A stretch of 52,833 nt of DNA, taken from Frankiales bacterium (GTDB taxonomy: Bacteria; Actinomycetota; Actinomycetes; Mycobacteriales; Jatrophihabitantaceae). The stretch covers positions 1 to 52,833 of the forward strand of contig JAOPUZ010000068.1 in NCBI GenBank assembly GCA_025966315.1, written 5' to 3'. The notes beneath the pieces were generated by a model. It had not been told where the DNA came from. It was given only the letters and a program-made list of their open reading frames with translations, and did no database searches. A program made the position numbers and the translations under genes. Below, piece after piece: positions 405 to 30,845 of the stretch. Every line of letters starts with the position of its first letter. Position 1 is the first letter of the stretch.

Positions 405-1235
405 TCACGCGGTGACCGGCCCGCCAGCAGCCGCGACACAGATACCGGCGAATTCGCTGGCGTCCAAACTGGCGCCGCCGACCAGCGCTCCATCCACATC
501 AGGTTGGCTCAGAATGTCTGCGGCATTGGTCGACTTGACCGAGCCACCGTAAAGGACCCGAACCGCGGCCGCGACCTCGGCACCGAACAGTCGAGCCAAC
601 TCCTCGCGGAGGGCGGCGCACACCTCTTGCGCGTTTTCCGGGGTCGCGACCTTGCCGGTTCCGATCGCCCACACTGGCTCATAGGCCAGCACGATGGTCA
701 CCGCCTGCTCGGCGGGTAGCCCGTCCACCGCGGCGCTCAGCTGCGAAACGCAGTGCGACACGTGCGCGCCGCTCTCCCGGATGTCGAGTGCCTCTCCGAC
801 ACACAGGATCGGTACCAGGTCGTTCGCGTAGGCGGCCCGCACCTTCGCCGCCACCAATTCGTCGGTTTCGCAATGATTCTGACGCCGCTCGGAATGGCCG
901 ACGACCACGAAGCCGCAGCCTAGTTTCGCCAGCATTGCGCCCGAGATGTCACCCGTGTGCGCACCGGCCGCGTGTGGGGAAAGATCCTGCCCGCCGTAAC
1001 GCAGCGGCAGCTTGTCGCCGTCCACCAACGTCTGCACCGACCGCAGATCCGTGAACGGTGGCAGCACGACGATGTCGACGGCTTCATAGTGGTGCGGCTT
1101 GAGGGTGAAGGCGATCTTCTGTACCAGGGCGATGGCCTCGAGATGGTTGAGGTTCATCTTCCAGTTGCCGCTGATCAACGGGCGACGACCCGGGCCGGCA
1201 CGCCGCCGGCCGCTCGGCGCAGCCGCTGCCGTCAT
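405..1235 (-). CDS. tpiA: Triosephosphate isomerase
   Basis: Interconverts dihydroxyacetone phosphate and glyceraldehyde 3-phosphate in cytosolic glycolysis/gluconeogenesis. The TIM-barrel catalytic residues are present: the NWKMN motif with Lys26, electrophilic His114 in VVVGHSERR, and the catalytic base Glu186 in [12 protein letters not shown]. The product is 276 residues, about 15 longer than typical because of a basic/Ala-rich N-terminal lead before [12 protein letters not shown]. There is no internal ATG or GTG in this lead, and a strong GAGGAG lies 6 nt upstream of the ATG, so I keep the long start. The ATG directly follows the pgk stop codon, implying translational coupling. It is the third gene of the gap-pgk-tpiA operon. 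Confidence 0.97.
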
Positions 1236-29103: not shown

Positions 29104-30039
29104 CTAGCGACCGGTGGCGGCGCTGTTCGTGGTGGGCGCCGGCGAGCCGCTGGACTTGAGCAGGCTGGCCACCGTGGTCACGACCAGCACGCCGACGATG
29201 ACGACCAGCGAGAGCCAGATCGGGATGTCGGGTGCCCAGTGCACCGACTTGCCACCGTTGACGAAGGGCAGCGTGTTCTCATGCAGCGCGTGCAGGATCA
29301 GCTTCACGCCGATGAACGCGAGCAGTACGGACAACCCCAGGCCGAGGTACACCAGTTTCGTGAGCAGGTTGCCGATCAGGAAGTACAGCTGGCGCAGTCC
29401 CATCAGCGCGAACAGGTTGGCCGTGAGCACGAGGTAGGGCTCGTTAGTGAGCCCGTAGATGGCCGGAACCGAATCAAGCGCGAAGAGCAGGTCGGTCGTG
29501 CCGAGGGCCACGATGACGATCGCCATCGGCGTCATCAGCCGGCGACCGCCCCGCTTGACGGTCAGCTGACTTCCGACGTAGTCGTCGGTGGACGGTACGC
29601 GCCGGCGGAGCCAGCGGATCGCCCGTCCGTCCTCGTAGTCCTGCTCGTCATCGGAGCCGTTCTCCTTGGCCAGCTTCACCGCGGTGTAAACGAGGAATGC
29701 CCCGAACAGGTAGAACACCCAGGAGAAGGCGTTGATGGCCGCGGCCCCGAGCGCGATGAACGCGCCGCGCAACACCAGCGCGAGCACGATGCCGATCAGC
29801 AGGGCCGACTGCTGCAGCGCCCGGGGCACGCCCAACTTCGTCATGATGATCAAGAAAACGAAGAGGTTGTCGATCGACAACGAGTACTCGGTGAGCCACC
29901 CGGCGAGGAACTGGGTGCCGTAATCGATGCCGCTGACCACGAACACGCCCGCCCCGAACAGCACGGCCGCCCCGATGAAGAAGGCCAGGTGCAGCCCCGA
30001 CTCACGCATGCTCGGCTCGTGCGGCCGACGGCCGATCAC
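29104..30039 (-). CDS. TerC-family membrane protein (probable Mn2+ exporter), 5' end displaced by a frameshift
   Basis: A TerC/Alx-type integral membrane protein of about nine hydrophobic helices. Conserved acidic motifs are present: WLTEYSLSIDNLFVFLIIM and LFALDSVPAIYGLTNEPYLV, which line the proposed metal path. Members preceded by a yybP-ykoY riboswitch export manganese, and such a riboswitch is present here (30121-30305). In this frame the first usable start is the GTG at 30039 (VIGRRPHEPS). The frame remains TerC-like upstream of it (LAVAIAFLAIDVF), and the natural ATG at 30110 with its own ribosome-binding site is out of register by one base. The first membrane helix is therefore split. 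Either a genuine 1-nt deletion or a sequence error; the rest of the gene is intact. Confidence 0.85.
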   Translation of the reverse strand: MIGRRPHEPSMRESGLHLAFFIGAAVLFGAGVFVVSGIDYGTQFLAGWLTEYSLSIDNLFVFLIIMTKLGVPRALQQSALLIGIVLALVLRGAFIALGAAAINAFSWVFYLFGAFLVYTAVKLAKENGSDDEQDYEDGRAIRWLRRRVPSTDDYVGSQLTVKRGGRRLMTPMAIVIVALGTTDLLFALDSVPAIYGLTNEPYLVLTANLFALMGLRQLYFLIGNLLTKLVYLGLGLSVLLAFIGVKLILHALHENTLPFVNGGKSVHWAPDIPIWLSLVVIVGVLVVTTVASLLKSSGSPAPTTNSAATGR

Positions 30040-30068
30040 GAATACGTCGATCGCCAGGAACGCGATGG

Positions 30069-30110
30069 CTACGGCGAGAGGATGATCCAGACGAGCGGGG
30101 AGACATGCAT
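30069..30110 (-). other. Out-of-frame original 5' end of the TerC gene
   Basis: From the ATG at 30110 the frame reads MHVSPLVWIILSP and stops at TAG (30071-30069). MHVSPLVWII is the usual start of TerC proteins. Adding one base at about 30080/30081 would continue it as WII-T-LAVAIAFLAIDVFVIG into the downstream TerC frame. An AAGGA Shine-Dalgarno lies 11 nt upstream of this ATG. This is the displaced N-terminus rather than an independent peptide, although a short leader peptide cannot be excluded. Confidence 0.8.
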
Positions 30111-30120
30111 TTCAACAACC

Positions 30121-30305
30121 GTCCTTCGGTCAGCGATTCGGGACCGTACGAATGCACGGTCCAGCTGCCGAAGGTCTGATCCACCCGGATAGCGGGCCGA
30201 CTCCCCGGGATCGCCGTGCTGCCGGCCGATGCGGCTTTGCCGGGCTGACGATCCGTGATGACGAGGTGGTCGCGGTGTTGCTGGTTCGGGATTACTCCCC
30301 TTCAG
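30121..30305 (-). promoter_or_regulatory. yybP-ykoY manganese riboswitch with translational expression platform
   Basis: On the minus strand the RNA begins GAAGGGGAGTAAT (30305-30293), with the GGGGAGUA element of the family. It continues to CTCGTCATCACGG (30265-30253), the second conserved loop, then CCCGGCAAAG. P1 closes with GACCTTC (30176-30170), pairing with the 5' GAAGG. The aptamer is about 136 nt. The expression platform contains the hairpin GGACCGT/ACGGTCC (30141-30162) and the terC Shine-Dalgarno. CCTTCGG at the P1 3' strand (30174-30168) can instead pair perfectly with CCGAAGG at the Shine-Dalgarno (30129-30123). Mn2+ binding would thus free the ribosome-binding site. Family assignment is from conserved sequence; the switching model is inference. 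Confidence 0.85.
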
Positions 30306-30362
30306 TACCGCTTACTCTAGCCGGACTTTGGCACTCTTCCGGCCGTCAGGCAGATTGGTGCG

Positions 30363-30845
30363 ATGCCACCACCGCCACCGCCAGGTCCGCAACCGCACGA
30401 ATCGCCCGACGATCACGTGTACTGGCGGATCGCACCGACGTTGACGGCGACGTTGTACGTGATTGCCGCGGCCATCTTCGCGGTTGCGATCTACACCAGC
30501 CTGCCGGTCGTGCTGCGGCTGGCGATCGCGGCGTTCGGCGTCGCCTTTGCCGTGACCGCCACGTACTGTGCGCGTCAGCTCATCTACGCCGACGCCGACG
30601 GGATCGCGATTCGCCACCTGATGTCGACCGACAGTTACAGCTGGCGCGACATTGCGGCGGTCGACGTCGTCACCACCGGCAAGACGGGGATGACGATCGC
30701 GCTGGACCTGGACGCGGGGCGGCAGGTGAAGCTACCGCCGTCCCTGGTGCTGCCGGCGACACCACATAGCCTGCAGAGCACTCACACGCTATTGGGCATG
30801 AAGGCTCGTCAACTGAGCGCGCTCGGGCGGCTAGATCGCCGCTGA
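30363..30845 (+). CDS. PH-domain membrane protein (actinobacterial, unknown function)
   Basis: A 160-residue protein. A Pro-rich N-terminus (MPPPPPPGPQPHESPDDH) is followed by two hydrophobic segments at about residues 27-47 and 50-68, then a soluble bacterial PH-like domain (LIYADADGIAIRHLMSTDSY, SWRDIAAVDVVTTGK, VKLPPSLVLP). This architecture is common in actinobacteria, where such proteins are small membrane proteins of unknown role. It is divergent from terC and converges with the PPK2 gene across a conserved hairpin. Confidence 0.8.
   Translation: MPPPPPPGPQPHESPDDHVYWRIAPTLTATLYVIAAAIFAVAIYTSLPVVLRLAIAAFGVAFAVTATYCARQLIYADADGIAIRHLMSTDSYSWRDIAAVDVVTTGKTGMTIALDLDAGRQVKLPPSLVLPATPHSLQSTHTLLGMKARQLSALGRLDRR

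Follow-up and report, generated by a model that had tools for sequence, protein, structure and literature searches.

An alx-type yybP-ykoY (Mn2+) riboswitch leader before terC in an actinobacterial genome and its predicted Shine-Dalgarno switch

On the minus strand of the window, by which we mean the whole stretch of 52,833 nucleotides of Frankiales DNA that was analysed, the compact leader of terC (30303-30170) belongs by homology to the yybP-ykoY (Mn2+) riboswitch class, with the form known from E. coli alx. From the observed homology, structure, mutually exclusive conserved helices and target genes, we infer with considerable confidence an alx-type riboswitch that would bind Mn2+ and turn terC translation on by freeing the Shine-Dalgarno sequence, a decision probably made co-transcriptionally. 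The kind of RNA is ordinary and the class already known. An actinobacterial terC leader assigned to it is also in print already, from Corynebacterium glutamicum; beyond that case, a novelty search in which the subscription literature was thinly covered brought up no further report on actinobacterial terC leaders. What is gained is the placement of this terC leader in a known riboswitch class, together with a testable anatomy for its switch.

Homology to the alx leader

TerC relatives came from two sources: 61 searched genomes, 50 of them matching at E<=1e-20, and a named collection, where the best 80 of the loci listed, with actinobacterial record titles, were kept. When 110 loci (L002-L111) were scanned for the motif under pairing rules, 102 of them yielded candidates, 130 in all, which a stricter filter reduced to 99 elements in 97 loci; all 99 have a TerC match at most 900 nt downstream. 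Common to these leaders are GGAGG or GAAGG, GGAGUA, a short P2, UCGUCAnnACGG or something near it, CCGG, and GAGACC with the P1 partner. Since the search itself asked for GGAGUA and part of P1, the conservation of these two carries little weight on its own; it did not ask for L3, P2, P3 or P4.

Fifty-six elements, chosen so as to leave out the genome of the window and all loci known to be of the same genus, make up an alignment (A1) from which a structure of 22 pairs was read, and on this structure a covariance model, R1, is based. Among these relatives, 88.8% of the cells are paired against 72.2% after shuffling, double changes occupy 213 cells against 69.4, and the covariation score reaches 0.453 against 0.166 in shuffled and at most 0.169 in slid controls; 16 of the 22 pairs, in helices P1-P4, have changed on both sides. 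R1, built without the window, picks out its positions 30304-30170 at 44.6 bits (E=2.7e-9 in the 110 kb searched; E=1.1e-7 genome-wide), and also finds the leaders of E. coli alx (47.4 bits) and of the same-genus loci L003 and L004 (56.5 bits), which bears out the family named in an earlier, sequence-only reading of this DNA. As one model finds both, the window leader is, on this comparative evidence, homologous to that of alx. The E. coli mntP leader gave no R1 match at E<=1. Taken alone, the window RNA folds only modestly better than shuffled versions of it, 8 of 200 of which equal or beat it (z -1.98), and a search over 4227 Rfam families returned no match in the window at the gathering score. 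Weak plus-strand matches to IRES_Bip and SNORD53 lay far under the cut-off and were set aside.

Across the whole genome of origin, R1 reports two places at E<=1, one in the window and one on contig C75. The copy on C75 (13255-13351, which is L001 1509-1605; 57.3 bits) carries the loop called type B below and precedes a Na/Ca exchanger gene (PF01699 in a Pfam check). Two elements per locus are also seen in L016 (2502-2605 and 3793-3887), L081 and L086, on opposite strands in the last two. Locus L008 holds, at 742-816 (-), a sub-threshold match to the c-di-GMP-I-GGC riboswitch (52.5 bits vs 59).

The reference model and the alx-like form

A search with the Rfam model RF00080 had been named in the sequence-only reading as its check, with the lack of a covariance-model match counting against it. 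RF00080 (Rfam 15) gave no match in the window at its gathering score (45 bits), nor any up to E=10 in a permissive scan of 30000-30450. We judge this outcome a false negative because, at E<=1, the same model misses both the E. coli alx leader and 17 homologous leader loci (0/17); R1 finds all 17, of which 14 are in its training set and L003, L004 and L007 outside it. At the cut-off, RF00080 likewise matched none of 20 loci, 19 of them with an element, and nothing in 150 genomes of the order (9 match at E<=0.1). As a control, it does match the E. coli genome, at a position not given by the scan. The E. coli mntP leader scores 41.6 bits, under the model's own cut-off of 45; given this score, the unmatched alx leader and the 17 missed loci, we do not take that cut-off as defining the class.

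R1 confirms seven of 12 sub-threshold RF00080 places (L001, L112-L116 and L121), all of which carry the other L3 type, B (L114 as judged from the alignment), and does not report the remaining five. The printed RF00080 consensus has GUCAACAUACUUG as its L3, an mntP-like loop. Taken together, these results suggest that the current RF00080 misses alx-like members, E. coli alx included, and that automatic annotation would therefore overlook actinobacterial Mn2+ riboswitches.

Anatomy of the aptamer

Table 1. Features of the terC leader and gene (window coordinates; R1 alignment, position in the alignment underlying model R1)
Feature	Position	Strand	Basis or remark
-10-like hexamer TAGAGT	30314..30319	-	first base 16 nt before P1
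P1 5′ strand GAAGG, switch helix	30299..30303	-	R1 alignment
L1 5′ side GGAGTA	30293..30298	-	invariant in A1
P2 5′ strand AUCC	30289..30292	-	pairs with 30182-30179
P3 5′ strand GACCACC	30265..30271	-	R1 alignment; pairs with 30204-30199, internal loop in the middle
L3 core UCGUCAUCACG, alx type	30254..30264	-	alignment and comparison with alx
P4 hairpin, long loop holding CCCGGCAAAG	30208..30254	-	R1 alignment; 30254-30249 with 30213-30208
P3 3′ strand GGAGUC	30199..30204	-	R1 alignment
Small hairpin CCCG...CGGG	30184..30196	-	predicted fold
P2 3′ strand GGAU	30179..30182	-	predicted fold
L1 3′ side CAGA	30175..30178	-	GAGA in 93/100 elements; C30178 unusual
P1 3′ strand CCUUC	30170..30174	-	also part of the anti-Shine-Dalgarno strand
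Anti-Shine-Dalgarno strand CCUUCGGCAGC	30164..30174	-	duplex calculation and fold
Hairpin enclosed by the Shine-Dalgarno helix	30141..30162	-	string check and fold
Shine-Dalgarno strand GCUGACCGAAGG, A30130 bulged	30123..30134	-	duplex calculation and fold
ATG matching the L003 terC start	30108..30110	-	frame stops at TAG 30071-30069
terC reading frame from GTG 30039, 311 aa	29104..30039	-	PF03741 TerC, E=5.1e-49

The strings picked out in the sequence-only reading are all present on the minus strand: GGGGAGTA at 30300-30293, CTCGTCATCACGG at 30265-30253, CCCGGCAAAG at 30244-30235, GAAGG at 30303-30299, CCTTCGG at 30174-30168, CCGAAGG at 30129-30123 and the hairpin at 30162-30141. One stretch that it had counted as a family element, CCCGGCAAAG, loses that status, since it lies inside the P4 loop and neither L003 nor L004, the leaders of the same genus, has it.

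P1 is the switch helix (Table 1); its cells are 99.3% paired in the 56 relatives, and the window forms five of five pairs. All seven pairs of P3 have changed on both sides among the relatives. The first pair of P2 is A-U in the window and, in A1, U-A in 49, C-G in 2 and G-C in 2 elements and unpaired in 3 (n=56). The L1 signature of the class, GGGGAGUA ... GAGACC beside P1, is found in the window, with GGAGTA at 30298-30293, an invariance that is partly due to selection, as the relatives were gathered with this string. On the 3′ side, L1 and P1 together read CAGACC, one base off the GAGACC of the class; the counts for this side use 100 classified elements (see below), those in the 99 filtered leaders being biased by the selection rule.

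The L3 of the window, UCGUCAUCACG, matches UCGUCAUUACG of E. coli alx, and A30259 is likely the equivalent of the invariant metal-discriminating A of L3, with docking between L1 and L3 a prediction in the window. The CCGG conserved in the family corresponds to 30208-30205. The window thus combines an L3 with the likely counterpart of the invariant A, covarying helices P1-P4 and a P1 strand shared with the expression platform, all features of the class. Upstream of the leader, a consensus scan returned no sigma-70 site; TANNNT starting 16 or 15 nt before P1 is present in 18 of 97 leaders, where the background frequency is 0.003 per position.

A switch at the Shine-Dalgarno sequence

The pairing of CCTTCGG with CCGAAGG proposed from the letters alone holds, and the helix extends further than had been claimed, to 11 pairs with one bulge, at A30130 (30174-30168/30129-30123, then 30167-30164/30134-30131), with a duplex energy of -19.8 kcal/mol. 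Bases 30174-30170 can pair either with 30303-30299 (P1) or with 30127-30123; P1 and the Shine-Dalgarno helix thus have a strand in common, and relatives conserve the two helices alike, as the proposed switch geometry had it.

When a helix was scored as present with at least four Shine-Dalgarno core bases and at least four of five P1 bases paired, it was found in 80 of 98 leaders, the window included. For this count the ATG of the window was set by hand, L075, whose region was empty, was dropped, and L022, with a clipped region, stayed in among the failures. Start codons were chosen by script, a few of them apparently too far inside the gene (e.g. L018, L038 and L098), and some of the 18 failures may therefore be failures of start-codon choice; two others among them, L108 and L110, use another register, in which GAGACUU or GAGACCU pairs with AGGUCUC. 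The same type of pairing at the Shine-Dalgarno sequence is open to L098 (by eye), and in all three the platform register somewhat resembles what lies downstream of E. coli alx. In 49 leaders less than 70% alike, a filter that reduces relatedness and leaves some of it in place, each strand pairs with its own partner at a mean of -17.88 kcal/mol compared with -15.31 for permuted partners, and none of 2000 permutations was as stable; in this non-redundant set the helix is locus-specific. Most Shine-Dalgarno cores read GGAGG, so the specificity would come mostly from pairs beyond the core. Among the 15 leaders with a CCUUC strand, a fully matching GAAGG, with the P1 A/G position compensated across all three strands, is seen in two (the window and L055), while 12 have GGAGG (a U-G pair) and L022 has GAAAG.

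In the metal-free fold the window leader is wholly sequestered, with pair probabilities of 0.99-1.0, and at equilibrium the sequestered form reaches -87.8 kcal/mol versus -73.6 with P1 and P2 enforced, a gap of ~14 kcal/mol. For an RNA ending just after the aptamer, the aptamer fold (-49.3) lies 3 kcal/mol above the best (-52.3), a smaller gap, which would fit a choice made during transcription. The hairpin at 30162-30141 is not followed by a U run and is therefore no intrinsic terminator; an intrinsic terminator in the leader was accordingly rejected, the single one predicted lying inside terC. Both points make translation the likely level of control.

We propose that, as long as Mn2+ is lacking, bases 30174-30170 (the P1 3′ strand) and the next six would pair with 30134-30123, and that terC, its Shine-Dalgarno sequence sequestered, would be poorly translated. 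Mn2+ bound between L1 and L3 would hold P1 (30303-30299 with 30174-30170) shut and so leave the Shine-Dalgarno strand free, whereupon TerC, a Mn2+ exporter or chaperone, would be made. The decision probably falls during transcription because the Shine-Dalgarno helix is predicted to be far more stable once formed. In view of the target genes and the literature on class members, Mn2+ would be by far the likeliest ligand: as described in the accessible parts of the reports, it stabilises the switch helix P1.1 in X. oryzae, where the invariant A of L3 is required (PMC6754395), the E. coli alx leader responds to it, and the mntP leader turns translation on (PMC9603457).

The terC gene in this assembly

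The Pfam match in Table 1 upholds the TerC target named in the sequence-only reading. In this assembly, a shift of one base separates the frame of ATG 30110 from that of the rest of terC, which is open only from GTG 30039. Compared with L003, the gene has dN 0.157 and dS 0.825 (dN/dS ~0.19), which indicates that the rest of terC is under purifying selection, and because it is conserved in this way, the frame break would be either recent or an error of assembly. The spacer to the ATG measures 12 nt from GAAGG in the window versus 6 from GGAGG in L003.

Target genes and two types of L3 loop in the phylum

Run on 296 genomes of the phylum, R1 gave a match at E<=0.01 in 71, at 99 places, stricter filters losing weak matches. 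One hundred elements were classified, namely 95 of these 99 places and five first found via RF00080; L221-L223 and the window were excluded. Called as the best tblastn match up to ~2 kb downstream, the target is TerC in 46, GDT1/UPF0016 in 17, a P-type ATPase in 14, a Na/Ca exchanger in 9, an M48 peptidase (HtpX-like) in 4 and an M50 peptidase in 2, with 8 unclassified. In L186 at least one other gene comes before the ATPase. Three of the eight unclassified cases (L128, L153 and L191) end less than 200 nt from the element, and another, L203, is GDT1-like by blastp and by its ExGDK motifs. Pfam checks of example proteins returned GDT1, Na_Ca_ex, E1-E2_ATPase, Peptidase_M48 and Peptidase_M50. 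Control of Mn2+ homeostasis genes, a feature of the class, is thus seen in TerC in the window and in TerC, GDT1, P-type ATPases and Na/Ca exchangers in the phylum; two earlier papers, in the portions available, count UPF0016 genes, TerC and yrbG among the established targets of such riboswitches (PMC7380456; PMC13274385).

The L3 loops of the 100 elements fall into type A, CGUCAnnnCG or near it, and type B, UCGACAnnCUG. TerC genes follow 43 type A elements, three with the near variant GGUCANUACG and none of type B; P-type ATPases follow 14 of type A and the peptidases six, with none of type B in either group, and GDT1 genes follow 17 of type B and none of type A. Na/Ca exchangers divide into 4 A and 5 B, and the unclassified targets into 5 A, 2 B and one near variant. 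A Fisher test of loop type for TerC versus GDT1 gives 1e-15, which is no true probability because the sequences are related; the training leaders of R1 were moreover of type A, and RF00080 was the route by which five loci of type B (four before Na/Ca exchangers, one before GDT1) entered. The contrast is also seen inside single genomes: in G037, L132 is of type A before TerC and L167 of type B before GDT1, and in the genome studied here the window is of type A (terC) and the C75 copy of type B (Na/Ca exchanger). The membrane peptidases found downstream of type A elements are of the M48 HtpX-like (L200, L202, L211 and L215) and M50 kinds (L161 and L179), and Pfam confirmed those of L200, L211 and L161.

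A new-ligand variant was considered for the UCGACA elements and dropped, their L3 aligning with the RF00080 consensus and with mntP, a known Mn2+ leader; type B, being like these loops, is probably not a new ligand class. A tentative and rather doubtful idea is that the subtype depends on which gene is controlled, whatever the organism, with alx-type loops (CGUCAnnACG) serving TerC and P-type ATPases and mntP-like loops (UCGACAnnCUG) serving GDT1/UPF0016 and about half of the Na/Ca exchangers. If so, the two aptamers of one cell, here those of terC and C75, would differ in the Mn2+ level, the metal or the pH to which each is tuned.

Weighing the alternatives

Several results count against an Mn2+-responsive translational switch: the lack of an RF00080 match, C30178, the 12-nt spacer, the z of -1.98, the out-of-frame ATG, the 18 of 98 leaders that fail the helix, the ~14 kcal/mol advantage of the sequestered form, the full GAAGG match in just 2 of 15 leaders and the peptidase targets (6 of 100). 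Chance resemblance or a different RNA class, to which the RF00080 negative might point, is nevertheless scarcely credible against a genome-wide E of 1.1e-7 for a model built without the window, strong covariation in relatives, consistent targets and the lack of any other Rfam family at cut-off. The one-base break between ATG 30110 and the terC frame, with the unusual C30178, might instead mean that the unit is decaying in this genome and that the damaged leader and gene no longer work, which we hold to be quite improbable: the rest of terC has been under purifying selection (dN/dS ~0.19 vs L003), the switch helices are intact, and an error in the draft assembly accounts equally well for the frame break.

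Two further alternatives keep the aptamer and change its input or output. As the window is of alx type in L3 and precedes a gene of Alx's own TerC family, its main physiological input might be alkaline pH, with Mn2+ secondary; an E. coli alx reporter rose 3.5-fold at pH 8.5 alone, but the same paper, in the part available, also has Mn2+ activating alx and the two acting together (PMC9603457), and elsewhere the element stands before genes of ATPases and cation exchangers, so we give this version a small chance. Class members are described, in the accessible text of one source, as acting on transcription or on translation (PMC11087558), and Rho-dependent or intrinsic termination might accordingly be the output here; this is unlikely, however, with no U run after 30162-30141, the only predicted terminator inside terC, and a P1-strand partner that is the Shine-Dalgarno sequence in 80 of 98 leaders. 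An Mn2+ riboswitch acting on translation is the reading that we prefer.

Comparison with known systems

A precedent within the phylum is the C. glutamicum cg2157 (terC) leader, whose 5′ UTR was observed by RNA sequencing and which matched RF00080 of an older Rfam at 49.13 bits (PMC3890552, as far as its available text goes). It shares with the window an actinobacterial terC and a transcribed leader of its own called yybP-ykoY, a likeness drawn from its description; it scored with the older model, whereas the window has no match with the present one. E. coli mntP resembles the window in its L1, GGGGAGUA, and in general layout, and it is an Mn2+-dependent translational ON switch according to the part available of PMC9603457, but its L3 is GUCAACAUACU and not CGUCAnnACG, and R1 does not match it at E<=1. 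The X. oryzae aptamer has, by the accessible description, the same kind of P1.1 switch helix, an L1/P1.1 3′ strand that begins GAGACC and the invariant A of L3, and differs in working through transcription antitermination (PMC6754395); here too the likeness is one of description, drawn by reading and not by a tool alignment.

E. coli alx (NC_000913.3) has GGGGAGUA, P2, UCGUCAnnACG, CCGG, GAGACC and P1 in the same order as in the window, a target of the TerC family, and a P1 3′ strand that can, by eye, re-pair just downstream. The two differ in what that strand re-pairs with: in alx the downstream partner is, again by eye, AGGUCU, while in the window it is the Shine-Dalgarno sequence itself, in a helix that encloses a hairpin, and the sequence is G+C rich.
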